Position numbers and translations under genes: made by a program. From Clostridium sp. (GTDB lineage Bacteria > Bacteroidota > Bacteroidia > Bacteroidales > Muribaculaceae), in assembly GCA_023666615.1 (NCBI GenBank), contig JAMPBQ010000004.1, positions 18,402 to 82,401 of the forward strand: DNA of 64,000 nt, given 5' to 3'. Under the pieces are notes generated by a model, which was not told where the DNA came from, made no database searches, and saw only the letters and a list, made by a program, of their open reading frames with translations. Of this stretch, positions 20,616 through 46,354 are shown in pieces. Position 1 is the first letter of the stretch; every line of letters begins with the position of its first letter.

Positions 20616-20654
20616 AAGAAATTTTCTTGATTTTGTGCGCAAATTTGAGATATG

Positions 20655-20686
20655 CAAATGTAATCATTATATTTGTAAACACCAAA
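20655..20686 (-). promoter_or_regulatory. Promoter of the XRE regulator with embedded operator-like site
   Basis: On the minus strand TTTG (20686-20683), 20 nt, then TACATTTG (20662-20655) is a perfect consensus. The spacer contains ATATTTGTAAACAC (20669-20682, plus-strand reading), which recurs exactly at 21139-21152. Confidence 0.7.
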
Positions 20687-37611: not shown

Positions 37612-38307
37612 CTATTGTTCGAGCACATAAGGCATGATGCACTCGCGCCATTGCAGATACCCCGGGGCGAGCAGATGCAGGCCATCATTAGTGTATTCCC
37701 GCTTCATATGCCCCTCTTCATCTATAAATGATGAATAAAGGTCAATCCACGCAAATCCTTTCTCTTCGGCCTTTGCCTTTACCTTTTCGTTTACGTCGCG
37801 GATCTCCTGGTCTCTCCCCGTCATGCCCTTGTACATGCCAAAGGATATGTTGATGGGCAAGCAGCTCTGCACGTACAGCTTCGTTTCCGGCAATTCAGCG
37901 CGTATGTGGTCTATTAGCTTCAGGTATGCCGTAGATATGGAATCCGCGCCAAGGTCATGGCTGATGTCATTCACCCCGATCATTAGGAAAATCTTGGCGG
38001 GCTTGCCATTGATTATGGAACCAAGCCTATCGTCAACGCCCTGGATAACATCGCTCGATATGCCGCGGTTCTTGACATTGGGCATCCCCAGCAGTTCGTG
38101 CCATTCGCATCCGTTGGTCAGTGAATTGCCCAGCATGATTATGTCGCCTGAATCCACCGGCAGAGTGTCAAACAGCGACGCCCTTTGATAATAGAACACG
38201 CCATACTCATATTTCTCCGGCTTTGCTCCAGCCTGATTGGCCGTCTGCGCCCTCGCGCCGGATAGCGCCAGGACCGCAGTAGCCAAAATCATTAATGTCC
38301 GTTTCAT
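37612..38307 (-). CDS. Secreted SGNH/GDSL-type hydrolase
   Basis: This 231-residue protein has a signal peptide (MKRTLMILATAVLALSGARA) and an SGNH fold: block I GNSLT with the nucleophilic Ser, the Gly of NRGISSD, the Asn in MIGVNDIS, and the C-terminal Asp/His pair in NDGLHL. The family includes acetyl-xylan, lipid and peptidoglycan O-acetyl esterases. It lies 19 nt after murQ in the MurNAc salvage block, which suggests removal of O-acetyl groups from MurNAc or its oligomers in the periplasm; that role is inference. Confidence 0.85.
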   Translation of the reverse strand: MKRTLMILATAVLALSGARAQTANQAGAKPEKYEYGVFYYQRASLFDTLPVDSGDIIMLGNSLTNGCEWHELLGMPNVKNRGISSDVIQGVDDRLGSIINGKPAKIFLMIGVNDISHDLGADSISTAYLKLIDHIRAELPETKLYVQSCLPINISFGMYKGMTGRDQEIRDVNEKVKAKAEEKGFAWIDLYSSFIDEEGHMKREYTNDGLHLLAPGYLQWRECIMPYVLEQ

Positions 38308-38326
38308 TGCCCTAAAGATAGCCCGT

Positions 38327-39142
38327 TCATTTCATATGTTCGGACGCCGCCTTTACCGACCCGTGCAGAAGAAGCAGCCTCTTTGCTTCTTCGTAGCTCA
38401 GCTTGCCCTCACTCTCTTCCATAAGCATGCGGGTGCCGCGGTCTATCAGCTTGGCGTTGGTGAGCTGCATGTTCACCATCTTGTTGCCCTTTACCCTGCC
38501 AAGCAGAATCATAGTGGAGGTAGTAATCATGTTGAGCACCATCTTCTGGGCCGTGCCTGATTTCATGCGTGAGCTGCCGGTGACAAATTCCGGGCCTACG
38601 ATAGTTTCAATTGGAATCTCAGCGGCGGCTGAAATTGGCGCGTCGGGGTTGGATGTGATGGATGCGGTGAGAATCCCGCGCTTGCGGGCCTCTTCAAGAG
38701 CGCCTATCACATAAGGCGTAGTGCCCGAAGCGGCGATGCCCACAAGGATGTCTTTTTCCCTGATGCCGGCCTCCATCAAATCGCGCCAGCCCTGCATCTT
38801 GTCGTCTTCAGCGTTCTCCACGGGATGGCGCAGAGCGTAGTCGCCGCCTGCTATCAGGCCCACCACCCATGACGGATCCATGCCGAATGTAGGCGGTATC
38901 TCCGACGCATCAAGCACGCCAAGGCGGCCGGACGTGCCGGCGCCGATATAGAAGATGCGGCCGCCCTGCTTCATGCGGCCTACGATTCCCTCCACCAGCT
39001 TTGTGATTTGCGGAATGGCCTTCTCCACTGCGTCGGCCACCTTCTTATCTTCCTGGTTGATGCAGCGCAGAAGCTCTTCCGCGCTCTTCTTTTCAAGATT
39101 GTCATAAAGCGAGTCTTGCTCGCTGATCTTTACGAATGCCAT
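38327..39142 (-). CDS. murQ: N-acetylmuramic acid 6-phosphate etherase
   Basis: This 271-residue SIS-fold protein has the MurQ sequence pattern: FYIGAGTSGRLGVLDASE, IPPTFGMDP, the glycine-rich IAAGGDYALRHPVENAEDD region (here LIAGGDYALRHP) and SSRMKSGTAQKMVLNM. It cleaves the D-lactyl ether of MurNAc-6-phosphate to give GlcNAc-6-phosphate and D-lactate in the cytoplasm. It follows the murK-type kinase by 96 nt and precedes the SGNH hydrolase by 19 nt. Confidence 0.95.
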   Translation of the reverse strand: MAFVKISEQDSLYDNLEKKSAEELLRCINQEDKKVADAVEKAIPQITKLVEGIVGRMKQGGRIFYIGAGTSGRLGVLDASEIPPTFGMDPSWVVGLIAGGDYALRHPVENAEDDKMQGWRDLMEAGIREKDILVGIAASGTTPYVIGALEEARKRGILTASITSNPDAPISAAAEIPIETIVGPEFVTGSSRMKSGTAQKMVLNMITTSTMILLGRVKGNKMVNMQLTNAKLIDRGTRMLMEESEGKLSYEEAKRLLLLHGSVKAASEHMK

Positions 39143-39238
39143 GAATCTATTTTTTCTTTCGCTGCGGCAATATTTGCCTCATAAGACTCCACCGCCGCTG
39201 TTTTGTTGTCTTTTGCAATCTACATGCGATTATTCTTA

Positions 39239-40114
39239 TCACCACATTTGCGTATGGTAGCGCAGCAATCCCTCCATAGGGCTCTTTATCACTGCTCCAA
39301 GCTCATATCCGCATGATGCCGCCGCCTGCGCCAGCTGCTTGCGGTAATGGAAGGCGATTGACCCCACGAAATTCACTGCCGCACCTTCCCCTTGCATGCC
39401 GTCATAGTTTGATATGTTGCGGATGAAGAACTGCCTGAAGGCCTCAACCGCCATGTCCTTTATCTCCGGCCGGTCGATGTTCTCTTTGATGAAGGGTGAC
39501 AGCGAGGCGAGGAATTTGTTTGCCCCCGGCTTGCGGTATACATTCTCAATTATCTTCATGCGGTCAAGCCCGTATTGCGCCAAAAATTTCTCGCAGAGGT
39601 CCTCTGGCAGCTGATTCTTCAGCACATTTCCCACCAACAGCTTGCCCAGCACCGCGCCGCTGCCTTCGTCGCCAAGGATATATCCAAGGGGCGATACGTT
39701 TGACTTGATGCTCTCGCCATCGTAGTAGCATGAGTTTGAGCCGGTGCCAAGAATGCAGGCTATCCCGGCTTCCCTTCCGCAGAGGGCGCGAGCCGCGGCA
39801 AGAAGGTCTGTGTCGACTTCCACAGCCGCATTGGGCATAATTGCCTTCAGCGCGTCGGCAACGTTGCCGCACACCGACGGGGATATGCAGCCTGCCCCGT
39901 AAAAGTAGACGTTGTCAACCTTTTCCGCATAAGGCGAAATCACTGGAGCCAGCTCTGCGTCAAGGCGTTGGCGTATCTCTTCGGTGGTGAGCATGACAGC
40001 GTTGAGCCCGGGGGTCTCAAATCTCTTCTCTATCATGACTGTGCCGTTGGAGCCATCTTTCGTTATCAGGCACCAGTCGATCTTCGTGCTGCCGCAATCT
40101 GCTATGAGTTTCAT
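39239..40114 (-). CDS. murK: BadF/BadG-type sugar kinase, MurK-like
   Basis: This 291-residue ASKHA-fold kinase has DCGSTKIDW as phosphate 1 loop, GTGSNSCYYDG and GDEGSGAVLGK, as in BadF-type N-acetylhexosamine kinases. In Tannerella forsythia a related kinase, MurK, phosphorylates MurNAc and is encoded beside murQ and a transporter gene; the same neighbours here support a MurNAc (and perhaps GlcNAc) kinase. A -7 element, TAACTTTG, lies about 26 nt upstream, so it can be transcribed separately from the dehydrogenase gene before it. Confidence 0.85.
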   Translation of the reverse strand: MKLIADCGSTKIDWCLITKDGSNGTVMIEKRFETPGLNAVMLTTEEIRQRLDAELAPVISPYAEKVDNVYFYGAGCISPSVCGNVADALKAIMPNAAVEVDTDLLAAARALCGREAGIACILGTGSNSCYYDGESIKSNVSPLGYILGDEGSGAVLGKLLVGNVLKNQLPEDLCEKFLAQYGLDRMKIIENVYRKPGANKFLASLSPFIKENIDRPEIKDMAVEAFRQFFIRNISNYDGMQGEGAAVNFVGSIAFHYRKQLAQAAASCGYELGAVIKSPMEGLLRYHTQMW

Positions 40115-40139
40115 ATTTTTGGTTTTATTATTCCGCTTA

Positions 40140-40147
40140 CAAAGTTA
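40140..40147 (-). promoter_or_regulatory. -7 element for the kinase-murQ unit
   Basis: The minus strand reads TAACTTTG, an exact TAnnTTTG, 26 nt before the kinase ATG. The -33 box is not clear. Confidence 0.5.
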
Positions 40148-40194
40148 ACGGAAATTTATGTATTATTCGCTCTTTTTGCCTAATTTTTCCTTTT

Positions 40195-42996
40195 TTAAGC
40201 ATTTCCCGGCCTTGTGGCTTCTTCTACAAGGTACGCGATGGATTCATACGGAACGCCTGAATGTGTGGTGAGACCTATTTCGCATGTGCGTGAGTTGCTG
40301 TAGCCCCTGCGCGCTCCCGCGGCCTCTATCTGCGGCCTTAGCTTGCGCAATCCCCATGCGTTGAGCTCGGGATGCATAAAGCCTTTGTCCCCGGCGAATC
40401 CGCAGCATCCCACTTCCGCCGGCACCACAACCTTTTTGGCGCATTTCATGGCCAAGCCTATCAATTTGTCATTAAGCCCCATCAGGCGCGTCGAGCACGT
40501 AATGTGTACGGCCACGGTCTCATCTATCTGCGTAAATTTCAAGTGGGGCGCCAAAATGTCGGCTATGAATTCCGCCGGTTCGTAAAGCTTGAGGCTCTTT
40601 ATGTGCTGTCTCATCCTGTGCAGGCACGGGCTTTGGTCGCACAACACCGGGTACCTGCCCTTTTTCGACGCCTCCAGCAACGCCGTTTCCAGTTCTGCGG
40701 TTTTCTCGTCGGCTATCTTCGGCATGCCTTTGCTCTCCCAAATCATGCCGCAGCACAGGTCGCGCATCCGCTCTGGAAAGACAACCTCAAACCCCGCCCT
40801 GTGGCATAGTTCCACCATTGTCTCTATCAGCGGAACCTTTGGCTTCTTGCCGTCCTTCACCGACAGTCCCATTGTCTGGTTTATGCACGATGGGAAATAC
40901 ACGATTTTCCCGTTCGGATATTTTTCCGCGTCTGTCCGCGCGGGCTTGTATTCTTTTCTTGGCTCGGGCAATGAGGATGTCCACAATGGCAATCCCGCTT
41001 TGTGAAATACCTTGCCTAAAGCGTCGACTCCCTTGTCGCCAAGCGCTTTGTGCCCAACTGACGCCAGCCATAGCATTCCTCGCATGTTGCCTTCTACGCC
41101 GCTTAAGTGATCTGCCGCGTATCGGCCTATCTTCTCATCTATGGAGCCGGGCTTCTTTTGCTGTTCGCGGATCTTATGCGTCAGGTCCGCAGTATTGATT
41201 CCCATCGGACATGACGTGCTGCAAAGGCCGTCCGCAGCGCATGTCTCGTCGCCAAGGTATTTGTATTCTTTCTCCAGCGTGGCTAGCCTCTCGGGATTCT
41301 CCCCGCTCTCCCTTAAGCTGGATATTTCTCTTCTGGCCACAATCCTCTCCCTTGCCGACATGGTCAATCCGCAGCTTATGCAGTTCACCTCGCAGAATCC
41401 GCACTCAATGCACTTGTCTACCAACGGATCGGTCAGCGGCAGTGGCTTCAGGTTTTTGAGATAGCACTGTGGATCATCGTTGAAGATTACGCCGGGATTG
41501 AGCAGACCCTCCGGGTCAAAAGCCGCCTTCACTTTTCTCATCATTTCAAAGGCCTTGGCGCCCCATTCTTTCTCAACGAATGGCGCCATGTTGCGCCCGG
41601 TGCCGTGCTCAGCCTTTAGAGATCCGTCGTATTTGTCCACCACAAGGTCCACCACCGCCTCAATCAGCCCTTGGTATTTTGCTATGTCGGCGTCGTCATT
41701 AAACGCCTGCGCAATGATAAAGTGGTAATTGCCCTCAAATGCATGCCCATAGATGCATGCGTCGTCATATCCTGCCTCTTCTATCAGGCGGGCCATGTCG
41801 GCCGTAGCCTGCGGAAGATGGTCTATCGGGAAAGCGATGTCTTCAATCAGCGAGGTTGTGCCCGGCGGACGCGTGCCGCCCACAGTCGGGAATATGCCTG
41901 ACCTCATCTTCCACATAGCCCCGGTCTTTGTGGGGTCTGCCGTAAATTCCGCCGGCTTGTAAAGATTGAATTCCGACAATATGCCCTCAATCTTTTTGGT
42001 GTTCTCCTTAAGCTCATTCTCTGTCTGCGCGCGCGTCTCAATCAGCAATGCGGTCAGCCCTTCTCCCGTTTCGTCATGCACGGATGCCAGAGATTTTTTG
42101 TCCAAAAGCTCACAGCTATACACTTCCGGCGCATCTTTCTTCAGCCTCACCACGGCTCGGCAAGCCTCTGTTATCTCCGAAAAATATGCCATGCATGATG
42201 CGGTAAGGGGCAATAGCGGGGCCGTAAGCATTGTGCATTCGCTCATGAATCCCAATGTCCCTTCGGAGCCCACCATAAGGTGCGCCAATATCTCACGGGG
42301 ATTATCGTATGCCACAAATGGCCGCAGATTCAGCCCCGTCACATTCTTTATCCTGTATTTCTTTTCTATGCGTTCGGCCAGTTCTTTGTCGCCGCGTATC
42401 TCATCGCGGATGGTCGCGATGTCTTTCAGAAGCTTCTTTTCTCGCTCTGAATCCCCGGGCTTCGCGGTGTCCACAACTGTGCCGTCTGACAGCACTATGC
42501 GCATCGACAGCATCATCTTGTCGCTGTTGGCGTGCGTCCCGCAGTTCATGCCCGAAGCATTGTTTATCACTATGCCGCCCACCATTGCCGACGCCTTCGA
42601 GGCCGGGTCGGGCGTAAAGAGCTTGCCGTAAGGCGCGAGAAGTTCATTCACTCTGTTGCCTATAATGCCGGGCTGCAATGTTATTGTTTCGGCATCCTTC
42701 CCAATTGTGTATTTTTCCCACCCCTTTCCGGCCACTATCAGCACGGAGTCTGTGATGGATTGCCCTGAAAGGCTCGTGCCCGCCGCGCGGAATGTAGCGG
42801 GGATTCCCATCTCTGAGGCCAAAGCCAGCAGACGCGACATTTGCTCCTCGTTTTCAGGCATCGCCACAGCTTTGGGTATCAGGCGGTAGAATCCCGCGTC
42901 GGTGCCCCAGGCGAGCCGCAATAGCTCGCCTGTCAGCACCTTGTCTTTGGGGACAATCTTTTTGGCCCGTTTTACAAATCCATCGTAATCCTTCAT
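40195..42996 (-). CDS. FAD- and Fe-S-dependent D-lactate dehydrogenase
   Basis: This 933-residue protein is a fusion of a GlcD-like FAD domain and a GlcF-like Fe-S domain. The FAD part has FRAAGTSLSGQSITDS, GIVINNASGMNCGT, VGSEGTLGFMSE and KAEHGTGRNMAPFVEKEWG. The Fe-S part has CIECGFCEVNC near residue 528, CAADGLCSTSCPMGI, and two CCG motifs (CCGMIWES near 747, GCCGFAGDKGF near 865). Length and motif wording closely follow the membrane-linked Pseudomonas Fe-S D-lactate dehydrogenases, which pass electrons to the quinone pool. Located between namZ and the MurK kinase, it would oxidise D-lactate released by MurQ. D-2-hydroxyglutarate or glycolate are other possible substrates. Confidence 0.88.
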   Translation of the reverse strand: MKDYDGFVKRAKKIVPKDKVLTGELLRLAWGTDAGFYRLIPKAVAMPENEEQMSRLLALASEMGIPATFRAAGTSLSGQSITDSVLIVAGKGWEKYTIGKDAETITLQPGIIGNRVNELLAPYGKLFTPDPASKASAMVGGIVINNASGMNCGTHANSDKMMLSMRIVLSDGTVVDTAKPGDSEREKKLLKDIATIRDEIRGDKELAERIEKKYRIKNVTGLNLRPFVAYDNPREILAHLMVGSEGTLGFMSECTMLTAPLLPLTASCMAYFSEITEACRAVVRLKKDAPEVYSCELLDKKSLASVHDETGEGLTALLIETRAQTENELKENTKKIEGILSEFNLYKPAEFTADPTKTGAMWKMRSGIFPTVGGTRPPGTTSLIEDIAFPIDHLPQATADMARLIEEAGYDDACIYGHAFEGNYHFIIAQAFNDDADIAKYQGLIEAVVDLVVDKYDGSLKAEHGTGRNMAPFVEKEWGAKAFEMMRKVKAAFDPEGLLNPGVIFNDDPQCYLKNLKPLPLTDPLVDKCIECGFCEVNCISCGLTMSARERIVARREISSLRESGENPERLATLEKEYKYLGDETCAADGLCSTSCPMGINTADLTHKIREQQKKPGSIDEKIGRYAADHLSGVEGNMRGMLWLASVGHKALGDKGVDALGKVFHKAGLPLWTSSLPEPRKEYKPARTDAEKYPNGKIVYFPSCINQTMGLSVKDGKKPKVPLIETMVELCHRAGFEVVFPERMRDLCCGMIWESKGMPKIADEKTAELETALLEASKKGRYPVLCDQSPCLHRMRQHIKSLKLYEPAEFIADILAPHLKFTQIDETVAVHITCSTRLMGLNDKLIGLAMKCAKKVVVPAEVGCCGFAGDKGFMHPELNAWGLRKLRPQIEAAGARRGYSNSRTCEIGLTTHSGVPYESIAYLVEEATRPGNA

Positions 42997-43023
42997 ATCG
43001 ATAAGGTTTGTTTTCCGATTCTA

Positions 43024-44253
43024 TTACTTATAAAGCATGTATTTCTCTGATGCCTTGCGGAATGCCTCGGCGTCCTTGTTCCAATAGCCCTCCATATCTG
43101 CCACTTTATAGTTTTTCCCGAACAGCTCGCGTATCTTCTTGCTGCCGGTCACCTTGTCAAACATGCCGAACCTCTTTGCGTCGCCAATCGCGAATGCGGC
43201 CTTGTCGGGATACATGTCCGCAAGCTCCTGCATCACATAGAATTGAACCAGCGTAAGCGGGGCCTTGTCCTTGTCTGTGACGTAAAATTCCACTCCCTGC
43301 ATGTTTTCTCCCTTGCCGAAGCCATAGAAGGGCTTGATGTGGATGGGGCGGAATTTCACGCCGGGGATATCCAGTCCGTTTAGCCTTTTAGACAGCTCGT
43401 CGGCGTCAACCCATGTGGCGCAGAATAGCTTGAACGGTAGAGTATATCCTACGCCTATGTTCATATACCCAAGCTCGCCCAAAATGCCCGAGGCGGGATA
43501 AAGCAATGCGGATTCGGCGTTAGGCTGGTGCGGCGAGGGGAGCACCCATGGCATCCCCGTTTCCTGGAACGACATATCGCGCGTCCACCCTTCCATCGGC
43601 ACCACGGTTAGCTTGGCCTTGGCGCCGTCTTTCAGCAAGCCTTCTTCATTAAGGTATTGCGCCAATTCACCCGGAGTTAGCCCATATAGGTATGGTATAG
43701 GAAATTGGCTCACAAACGAGTAGCAGCCATCTTCCACCAAATTGCCCTCTATCTTATTGCCGCCTACTGGGTTAGGACGATCAAGCACCATGAATTCCTT
43801 GCCTTGCTCCGCGCAGGCCTCCATGGCCTTGCCCATTGAGGAGATAAACGTAAACGACCTGCAGCCATTGTCCTGTATGTCATAGAGCAGCACATCCACG
43901 TCCTTAAGCATTTCGGGAGTGGGCTTGTGAGTCTTGCCGTAGATTGAGTACACCGTCACCCCTGTCGCCGGATCCACGTATGTATCCACCACGTCGCCGG
44001 CATGCACATCGCCGCGTACGCCATGCTCGGGGGAATATAGCCCCACCAGCTCCACGCCTGGAGCCTCATGCAGTATGTCAATCGTTGACTTCAGGTTGTT
44101 GTCTACGCCGGACGGATTGGTGATCAAACCTACGCGCTTGCCCTGAAGCTGCGCGAATCCGTTGTCGCGAAGCACCTCGATGCCGGGCTTTACCTGCGCC
44201 GACGCTATCAATGCCACTGTGGCAAAAGCCATCAGAAAATTATTTCTTTTCAT
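43024..44253 (-). CDS. namZ: Exo-beta-N-acetylmuramidase NamZ family (DUF1343)
   Basis: This 409-residue protein has a signal peptide (MKRNNFLMAFATVALIASAQ) and a DUF1343 body with LITNPSGVDNNL, GLYSPEHGVRGD, YDIQDNGCRSFTFIS and LDRPNPVGG. DUF1343 proteins of Bacillus subtilis and Tannerella forsythia are NamZ enzymes that remove terminal MurNAc from peptidoglycan-derived chains. It should act in the periplasm and feed MurNAc to the AmpG-like importer encoded 74 nt upstream. It lies 27 nt before the D-lactate dehydrogenase gene. Confidence 0.92.
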   Translation of the reverse strand: MKRNNFLMAFATVALIASAQVKPGIEVLRDNGFAQLQGKRVGLITNPSGVDNNLKSTIDILHEAPGVELVGLYSPEHGVRGDVHAGDVVDTYVDPATGVTVYSIYGKTHKPTPEMLKDVDVLLYDIQDNGCRSFTFISSMGKAMEACAEQGKEFMVLDRPNPVGGNKIEGNLVEDGCYSFVSQFPIPYLYGLTPGELAQYLNEEGLLKDGAKAKLTVVPMEGWTRDMSFQETGMPWVLPSPHQPNAESALLYPASGILGELGYMNIGVGYTLPFKLFCATWVDADELSKRLNGLDIPGVKFRPIHIKPFYGFGKGENMQGVEFYVTDKDKAPLTLVQFYVMQELADMYPDKAAFAIGDAKRFGMFDKVTGSKKIRELFGKNYKVADMEGYWNKDAEAFRKASEKYMLYK

Positions 44254-44283
44254 ATATTCAAATTTTTTCTATTTCAAATTCCA

Positions 44284-44330
44284 AAACCCTTAAACACCTT
44301 AAAACCCTTAAAGCACTTAAAGCCGCCTTA
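44284..44330 (-). repeat. Degenerate ACCCTTAAA repeat tract
   Basis: AAACCCTTAAACACCTTAAA and following near-copies of a 9-12 nt unit fill the gap between namZ and the importer gene, reaching the importer stop codon. Confidence 0.5.
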
Positions 44331-46196
44331 AGCGCCCTGCTTCTTCTTTCCGAATGACGGATCCACCTTCACTATCATTGCCACCACAATGGTCGCGATG
44401 CAGCAAATCATTGTCCATACAAAGAAATGCTTGTAGCCGATGGTCTCTTGCACCCAGCCCGCTATCATGCCGGTCATCATCGACAGAGCCATCAGTCCGG
44501 TACAGATCGCATAGTGCGAGGTCTTGAATTTGCCTTCTGAATAGTAGATGAGATAGAGCATGTAAGCCGTAAAGCCAAAGCCGTAGCCAAATTGCTCAAT
44601 GAATACACAAATGTTCACCGTAAGCAGCGAATGGTCCTGGAAATAGCTTAGGTACACAAACGTTAGGCAGGTCAGCGACATGCTCCACGCCATAGGCTGA
44701 AGCCATTTCTTCAAGCCGCCCTTGGCCGCCACCATGCCGCCGATGATGCCGCCGATGGTCAAGCCGATGATGCCTATGGTGCCGTACACTAGGCCTACTT
44801 CGCCTGTGCTCAGTCCAAGCCCTCCCTTGTCTATCGGGTCAAGAAGGAAGGGCTGGATGATCTTTGTGAGCTGCGCCTCGGGGAAGCGATAGAGCAGCAT
44901 AAACACTATGGCGGCGATTGTTTGCTTCAGCGGGAATTTGGTGAAGAATGTGCGGAAGGCGTCAAGGAATCCCATTATTATGCCCTTGGCCGATGCCTCG
45001 CCGTTGGCGCCGTCGCTTGCAGGCCTGGGCAATGCCCAATTATGATAAATTACGACAATGAAAAAAAATGCCGAAAGCACTATGAACACCACCGACCATG
45101 CCATCGGTATGTTGCCTGATGTGCCGCTGAAAGTCGCGGCGGTCCTCTCCTTGATCTTGGGGTCGATCGTGTAGTAGAGATATGCTGGCTGGTCCCAGTT
45201 TTCGGCGTTGAACACAAGGCGCTGGTCGCTTGCAAGCTTTATGCTTTGGTCGCCCTCCTTGAAATTGAATATCAGCACGATTTCCTCTCCCTCGGCGGGC
45301 GCTTGGGTGAGGCGCACGCTTGAAATGGCGAAATTGCTGTTGGGCGATGCCGTTTCTCCGCGGTCTTCGCCAAATTTCTCTCGTATCCATGTGCGGAATG
45401 CCCCCCACTCTGATTTTTTCACTGAGGCCGCAGCTGTTTCCTCTGCCGCCACAAATCCATTGGCGATGTTGCTTTCGCCTACCTTTTGCTTCATCATCGC
45501 CGAATACTCGGGGAAGGCCATTGCATCCCCTTCATATTCCACCATGTCCGCAACGCCAACGGATATCGTCTGCAGCGGCGACACTATGAATTTCTGACCC
45601 GATTGCTCCGACATTTCTTCTTGCGGAGGCAGCGCAGCTATGGTCGCCGGCTCGTCTGGGTCGACAATCAATTGCGTCTCTATAGGCTCAAGCCCGGTGT
45701 TCATTTCTATCAGGCCGGCCAACACCACAAGCAAGCCTTGGCCCACCACGGTGGCCACGCGATAGAAAGTTGAGCGTATGCCCACATAGAAAGATTGCTC
45801 ATGCTCAGTCAACGCCAGCATATAGAAGCCGTCGGCCGCAATGTCATGCGTGGCCGAGGCGAATCCCATCAGCATGAATATGGCAAGGGTGAATTGCACA
45901 TAGAATTGGGTTGGGATTGTAAAAGCTATGCCCGCCAGGGCGAAGGCCACAATCCATTGCATGGTCAGCGTCCACCAGCGCTTTGTGCGGATTAGGTCTA
46001 CGAAGGGGCTCCAGAAAGGTTTGATCACCCAGGGCAAGCCTAGCCAGCCGGTATAGATGGCTATGTCGGTGTTGCTCATGCCTAGCCTCTTGTACATGAT
46101 CACAGAGATGGTCATTACAGCCACATATGGCAGTCCCTGTGCGAAATACAACGTCGGAATCCAGTACCACGGATTGCGTTTCTTTGTTTTTTCCAT
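44328..46196 (-). CDS. AmpG/MurT-like MFS importer with extra periplasmic domain
   Basis: This 622-residue MFS protein starts with the AmpG-like PTLYFAQGLPYVAV and GWLGLPWVIKPFWSPFVD, and has ASATHDIAADG, a hallmark of muropeptide/anhydromuropeptide permeases. About 195 residues (166-362) interrupt the helices between predicted TM5 and TM6, on the periplasmic side; the end of this insert (290-346) has the wording of a Calx-beta-like strand repeat (LVFNAENWDQPAYLYYTID). It likely carries MurNAc or muropeptides across the inner membrane. It is the first gene of the salvage block and has a perfect promoter. Confidence 0.88.
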   Translation of the reverse strand: MEKTKKRNPWYWIPTLYFAQGLPYVAVMTISVIMYKRLGMSNTDIAIYTGWLGLPWVIKPFWSPFVDLIRTKRWWTLTMQWIVAFALAGIAFTIPTQFYVQFTLAIFMLMGFASATHDIAADGFYMLALTEHEQSFYVGIRSTFYRVATVVGQGLLVVLAGLIEMNTGLEPIETQLIVDPDEPATIAALPPQEEMSEQSGQKFIVSPLQTISVGVADMVEYEGDAMAFPEYSAMMKQKVGESNIANGFVAAEETAAASVKKSEWGAFRTWIREKFGEDRGETASPNSNFAISSVRLTQAPAEGEEIVLIFNFKEGDQSIKLASDQRLVFNAENWDQPAYLYYTIDPKIKERTAATFSGTSGNIPMAWSVVFIVLSAFFFIVVIYHNWALPRPASDGANGEASAKGIIMGFLDAFRTFFTKFPLKQTIAAIVFMLLYRFPEAQLTKIIQPFLLDPIDKGGLGLSTGEVGLVYGTIGIIGLTIGGIIGGMVAAKGGLKKWLQPMAWSMSLTCLTFVYLSYFQDHSLLTVNICVFIEQFGYGFGFTAYMLYLIYYSEGKFKTSHYAICTGLMALSMMTGMIAGWVQETIGYKHFFVWTMICCIATIVVAMIVKVDPSFGKKKQGA

Positions 46197-46261: not shown

Positions 46262-46293
46262 CAAATTTACTGAATTATCGGAGAAATTCCAAA
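46262..46293 (-). promoter_or_regulatory. Promoter of the MurNAc salvage block
   Basis: The minus strand reads TTTG (46293-46290), 20 nt, TAAATTTG (46269-46262), a perfect consensus, 65 nt before the importer ATG. Confidence 0.75.
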
Positions 46294-46319
46294 TATTGCC
46301 TCCTGTTTTTTTGCGAAAA

Positions 46320-46354
46320 AAAGGCGCCTCGGATTCTTTTCCATAGGCGCCTTT
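46320..46354 (-). terminator. Terminator after the D-2-hydroxyacid dehydrogenase gene
   Basis: AAAGGCGCCT (46320-46329) pairs with AGGCGCCTTT (46345-46354), and the minus strand continues with a run of seven T. It isolates the salvage block from the gene above it. Confidence 0.8.

Follow-up and report, generated by a model that had tools for sequence, protein, structure and literature searches.

Do the six neighbouring genes found on one strand of a Muribaculaceae contig form a single route for the use of N-acetylmuramic acid (MurNAc), and which of them go beyond the set described in Tannerella forsythia? We addressed this question in a 64,000-nucleotide stretch (the window) of contig JAMPBQ010000004.1, assembly GCA_023666615.1. 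The six open reading frames (ORFs) all lie on the minus strand at the positions given in an earlier note on this DNA, and domain, model and solved-structure matches bear out the families named there, i.e. NamZ, a dehydrogenase with flavin (FAD) and Fe-S domains, MurK, MurQ and a secreted SGNH hydrolase. The importer, previously described as AmpG/MurT-like, is AmpG-like only. We read the locus, with a probability of roughly three in four, as a block for MurNAc catabolism that is similar in kind to the Tannerella ampG-namZ-murTKQ operon and is enlarged by a D-lactate dehydrogenase and an O-acetylesterase acting on sugars. The strongest point of this reading is the link between the dehydrogenase and MurQ, while the esterase is an accessory whose substrate is uncertain. 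The 933-residue dehydrogenase is abbreviated DLDH; G and L numbers denote genomes and loci, G000 being the window's genome and G226 a sister species.

Conservation of the block and the dehydrogenase-MurQ link

MurQ, which releases one D-lactate per MurNAc, is recognized by its model with 314 bits (cut-off 302). Among 118 genomes of the family, MurQ is present in 48 and a close DLDH (at least 57% identity) in 49, namely in all 48 and in G170. A close DLDH thus accompanies MurQ in 48/48 genomes compared to 1/70 without MurQ (Fisher P = 2e-32, relatedness ignored). The 49 do not include the distant homologues (36-37% identity) of G177, G246 and G187, three genomes that give no MurQ match; if these are counted, the latter figure becomes 4/70. 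In 42 of the 48 genomes the two genes lie on one contig and one strand at a distance of 1,056 to 2,309 bp, and in 6 they lie on different contigs of draft assemblies. The association is also seen in 148 genomes of the order, where DLDH occurs in 16, MurQ in 32 and both in 15 (P = 6e-11, again ignoring relatedness).

We then compared the neighbourhood of DLDH in the best 80 of 119 relatives in a scan of named genomes, counting a gene only where the contig extends far enough to contain it. NamZ (61/73) and AmpG (57/67) are found upstream, and MurT (73/75), MurK (69/70), MurQ (60/63) and the SGNH gene (34/55) downstream, in the same order throughout these loci. The window's genes on either side of the block served as a control and are seldom conserved (SerB 8/54 downstream; HADH 0/64 and PycB 0/58 upstream; AKR 0/44), with an HADH-like gene downstream at one locus, L041. 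Hence it is the block and not the region that is conserved, and since the same gene set is kept in relatives the block appears to be a real pathway. Co-conservation in relatives, on which the earlier note had staked its proposal, is therefore observed. Its single logical MurNAc route is supported; the dehydrogenase belongs to it as a true, co-conserved component, and the esterase is often part of it. Relative to G226, purifying selection acts on each of the six ORFs, with ratios of nonsynonymous to synonymous substitutions (dN/dS) of 0.035-0.066 at a dS of 1.1-2.6, which is near saturation.

The composition of the block varies. G099 harbours all six genes plus MurT, G145 a block without the SGNH gene and G053 one without DLDH, and in G037, G007 and G114 DLDH adjoins NamZ outside the block. 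Loci in which DLDH, MurT, MurK and MurQ occur without AmpG and NamZ tie DLDH to the MurTKQ core; in one of these, L086, the four ORFs overlap by 4 bases (starts set mechanically).

DLDH comprises FAD_binding_4, FAD-oxidase_C, 4Fe-4S and CCG domains, with the CCG model and two of the four matching 4Fe-4S models above their gathering cut-offs. Its flavin half matches glycolate oxidase best by E-value among solved structures (9.1e-32), followed by mitochondrial D-lactate dehydrogenase (1.1e-31), and GlcD is its top-scoring NCBIfam model, far under the cut-off. These matches would favour a different 2-hydroxyacid as substrate, such as glycolate or D-2-hydroxyglutarate, and a MurQ neighbourhood that is not about D-lactate. 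We consider this quite improbable, as the flavoenzyme is present in every family genome with MurQ, whose product is D-lactate, and in a single one of those without it. Further indication for a D-lactate dehydrogenase comes from engineered Corynebacterium glutamicum bearing MurQ: lactate accumulates when it is grown on MurNAc, and the authors of the study propose more Dld (PMC6165865, accessible text), which illustrates the benefit that an enzyme of this type would bring. Separately, at L034:9965-14724 a DLDH 69% identical to that of the window adjoins a gene that by eye is DXS/transketolase-like, on a stretch without block genes.

Several observations weigh against the reading as a MurNAc block with its own D-lactate dehydrogenase and esterase. 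No equivalog model assigns a substrate to DLDH (glcD 208 of 568 bits, YdiJ 152 of 1350), and the AmpG models score the importer under their cut-offs (TIGR00901 163 bits against a curated 350, with the match split around an insert; NF008238 77 against 756). The esterase gene is absent from 21 of the 55 eligible named loci. G170 carries DLDH and MurT near a contig end without a MurQ match, G002 has DLDH without a MurQ match, and L034 and L035 have DLDH without block genes on the contig stretch. Finally, 17 of the 32 MurQ genomes of the order give no DLDH match at 1e-60, so that DLDH is not required everywhere.

Table 1. Features of the block and its surroundings in the window
Feature	Positions	Strand	Basis
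Secreted SGNH esterase, proposed amino-sugar O-acetylesterase, 231 aa	37612..38307	-	Lipase_GDSL_2, 78 bits
MurQ, MurNAc-6-phosphate etherase, 271 aa	38327..39142	-	TIGR00274 equivalog model
MurK-type MurNAc kinase, 291 aa	39239..40114	-	solved-structure matches, pocket residues
Gap where relatives have a MurT/NagX-like gene, ~1.2 kb	40115..40194	.	comparison with related loci
TAACTTTG, promoter -7-like element before murK	40140..40147	-	motif count, sister alignment
FAD/Fe-S 2-hydroxyacid dehydrogenase, proposed D-lactate dehydrogenase (DLDH), 933 aa	40195..42996	-	domains, MurQ co-occurrence
NamZ, exo-beta-N-acetylmuramidase family, 409 aa	43024..44253	-	both NamZ domains over cut-off
AmpG-like major facilitator superfamily (MFS) permease, long form, 622 aa	44328..46196	-	model and profile matches
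AmpG insert, residues ~165-362 (~200 residues), between two hydrophobic segments	45111..45704	-	sequence
Promoter-like TTTG-N20-TAAATTTG before ampG	46262..46293	-	motif scan
Terminator-like repeat AGGCGCCT ... AGGCGCCT then T run, upstream of block	46316..46352	-	by eye

MurT, kinase, NamZ and importer

According to the accessible part of PMC5388701, T. forsythia Tanf_08345-Tanf_08385 form one transcript with a xanthan lyase, two gtf, lytB, ampG, ybbC, murT, murK and murQ. In the window AmpG, NamZ, MurK and MurQ stand adjacent on one strand in this same order, and the window's relatives carry similar gene kinds upstream. In contrast to that operon, the window adds DLDH and the SGNH gene, has neither the MurT-type nor the upstream genes at the locus and is probably read as two transcripts. 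That the grouping is broader than the Tannerella set, as had been claimed, thus holds for DLDH and the esterase only, since ampG and ybbC (NamZ) already belong with murTKQ in what that source describes. Compared to MurP-MurQ of Escherichia coli, a kinase and a permease take the place of the phosphotransferase system, and a dehydrogenase for lactate is included.

The earlier description of the block as complete does not hold at this locus. Upstream of AmpG, the 80 related loci harbour genes of the Golvesin_C (47), GT2 (50) and DUF4922/SpoIID (52) kinds, the Golvesin_C-locus protein with an Amidase_3 match under the cut-off; no match to any of these kinds is found either within the window or across a 14-kb sister stretch, the rest of the genome not having been searched. 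Moreover, MurK lies downstream of DLDH in 72 of the 80 loci, with an ORF of 378-576 residues between them in each, and 77 of the 80 have a MurT match. In the family, a MurT-type gene directly follows DLDH in 47 of 49 genomes (13 more distant MurT rows left out), the exceptions being the window's genome and G226. In the window MurK is preceded not by MurT but by the gap at 40115-40194, which, like that at 42997-43023, is as previously given. The MurT-type copies of G000 and G226 lie on other contigs (C11 and C37, respectively); they group together with a support of 1.0 and are nested, with weaker support (0.40-0.81), among block MurTs, so the gene has probably moved out of the block in these two species. 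The window thus shows a reduced and rearranged version of a wider Bacteroidales operon.

In relatives, the gene that separates DLDH from MurK is HGSNAT_cat/NagX-like (23.8 bits, cut-off 22). As NagX is distantly related to TfMurT in the portion of PMC9007349 available, this gene is probably MurT, the orthology resting on position and on that source rather than on an alignment with TfMurT. The window has no such gene, its genome having the copy at C11. PMC5790795, in the passages accessible, places TfMurT in a 'sodium symporter superfamily' and elsewhere calls it a major facilitator; a sodium symporter was rejected, as the gene at the murT position is HGSNAT-like, in agreement with PMC9007349. 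We likewise rejected MurT as the importer at the locus, since the permease encoded there resembles AmpG and the MurT-type gene lies elsewhere. At L104:12795-14525, a MurT-type protein of 576 residues has a repeat-like insert near its C-terminus (Sel1-like by eye).

The kinase has no Pfam match and matches six solved kinase-like sequences with E-values of 1.9e-59 to 8.2e-86. The closest solved chains are Q8A1P1 and PG1100, which we take to be from Bacteroides thetaiotaomicron and Porphyromonas gingivalis, followed by T. forsythia MurK (273 bits) and K1058 (206 bits); 8oqw was taken as MurK and 8oqk as K1058 from residue numbers. Thr102, Asp103, Ser141, Pro142 and Leu143 correspond to Thr94, Asp95, Ser133, Pro134 and Leu135 of T. 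forsythia MurK. The catalytic Asp and the MurNAc-pocket Thr, Ser, Pro and Leu described in the accessible part of PMC10465942 are therefore all present, and MurK activity is predicted. Both the scores and the pocket residues led us to reject a slower K1058-type kinase. Among 99 MurQ-linked kinases the residues are kept in 99 (Asp), 98 (Leu), 90 (Pro), 85 (Ser) and 51 (Thr, with Ser in 45), compared to 28, 23, 22, 15 and 4, respectively, among 28 kinases not linked to MurQ, both sets containing some genes fetched twice. A natural MurK-MurQ fusion in a single ORF occurs at L148:4130-5785 in G007 (552 codons) and at L149 in G114. At L130, in G125, AmpG, NamZ and MurK stand without MurQ, and this genome has no MurQ match.

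NamZ matches both of its domains (NamZ_N 276 bits, NamZ_C 133 bits) and the solved relative 4k05 (5.9e-166), and its N-terminus is signal-peptide-like by eye. Among the matches listed, the window's genome has a close NamZ copy in the block and a distant one at C11. The importer is matched to solved AmpG (8zgz) at 2.8e-23 by a profile of 34 sequences. Its insert is probably periplasmic, as judged from the MFS fold. A known domain was rejected for this region, as Pfam gave no match with E-values up to 10 and a profile search of the PDB no credible match over the insert. It is 74% identical to that of G226 compared to 97% for the rest of the protein, and is constrained (dN/dS 0.077 relative to G226). 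AmpG proteins in the named loci fall into a short class of 425-475 residues (n = 32) and a long class of at least 615 residues (n = 24) at the same block position, in addition to six rows from L037, L065 and L100 that are odd or partial.

Esterase and candidate transcription signals

The catalytic Ser, Gly, Asn and Asp-His blocks of the SGNH family are present in the esterase (GNS, NRG, GVND, NDGLH). It shares fold family, catalytic blocks and 54% identity over 196 residues with the Phocaeicola vulgatus sialic acid acetylesterase (PvSAE, 6njc/7pzg). This identity, the loci in which the gene is absent and the tree, in which the block esterases of L091 and L120 are placed on the side of PvSAE, are what one would expect of a sialate O-acetylesterase placed here by chance. 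We regard this as doubtful, though it deserves some weight: 50 block esterases (47 distinct; those of L045 and L153 are identical) form a clade, with a support of 0.956, that excludes PvSAE as well as the 9 stand-alone copies tested. On this ground an assignment as sialate O-acetylesterase (PvSAE/EstA) was rejected. In contrast to PvSAE, the block esterases belong to a separate clade tied to murQ, and the enzyme of the block may work as an O-acetylesterase all the same.

Conserved promoter-like elements before ampG and murK suggest two transcripts, ampG-namZ-DLDH and murK-murQ-SGNH, and make a single transcript doubtful. Sites of the TTTG-N20-TAAATTTG type occur 7 times in the window compared to 0.70 expected, and the core of the one before ampG is kept in G226. 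The element before murK belongs to a motif, TANNTTTG, that is found 55 times compared to 31.6 expected, which is weak by itself; it lies within tttccgttaactttgta, kept in G226 amid otherwise diverged gap sequence, and the motif scan of the window finds no TTTG partner at -33. The loop of the terminator-like repeat exceeds the limit of the terminator scan, which therefore does not list it, and the alignment with G226 has no matching repeat. Sigma-70-type promoters and terminators were rejected, as the scan showed no excess over shuffles. Elsewhere in the window, at 20644-20686, two promoter-like TTTG-N20-TAnnTTTG sites overlap on opposite strands.

Proposed working and wider readings

From these families we infer substrates, a direction of flow and an electron acceptor. 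In the periplasm the SGNH esterase would strip O-acetyl groups. Its most useful target would be the 6-O-acetyl of MurNAc, since this group would prevent phosphorylation at O6; removal of the group would let MurK act. NamZ would free MurNAc from fragment ends. AmpG would bring in larger muropeptides, and free MurNAc would enter via the MurT-type protein encoded at the other locus. The Fe-S flavoenzyme would oxidize D-lactate to pyruvate and hand on the electrons, which would allow use of the lactyl carbons and keep D-lactate from accumulating.

The block might instead serve mainly to recycle the cell's own wall into new peptidoglycan, with no feeding on foreign fragments and with DLDH merely clearing a by-product. 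In other bacteria AmpG and MurQ function in recycling (PMC5388701, PMC5790795), and in T. forsythia MurNAc is also directed into wall synthesis (PMC5790795), as far as the accessible text of these papers goes. We nevertheless hold recycling to be the less likely use, although a serious one: the N-termini of NamZ and the SGNH protein look secreted, MurQ leads to catabolism and 70 of the 118 family genomes have no MurQ match.

A bolder form of the catabolic reading starts from MurA. The model TIGR01072 finds no match in the window's genome, while 14/14 control genomes matched, 10 of them over the cut-off; as the assembly is 94.6% complete, the miss may be an assembly gap. We take it as a lead to MurNAc dependence and not as a result, and among 12 listed titles of open-licence papers none addresses gut Bacteroidales lacking MurA. 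It is conceivable, if unlikely, that the lineage makes no MurNAc and lives on that of its neighbours, with a Tannerella-type operon refined to full use by a new clade of MurNAc O-acetylesterase freeing O6 for MurK, an AmpG whose added periplasmic domain binds fragments and a D-lactate dehydrogenase devoted to drawing energy from the lactyl group.

In the open-licence literature, as far as accessible, we found no account of the fate of MurQ-released D-lactate in gut Bacteroidales. That each of the 48 family genomes with MurQ also retains DLDH offers a testable answer. The block singles out two parts, the esterase clade and the AmpG insert, and points to gut bacteria for which the walls of neighbouring cells may be food.

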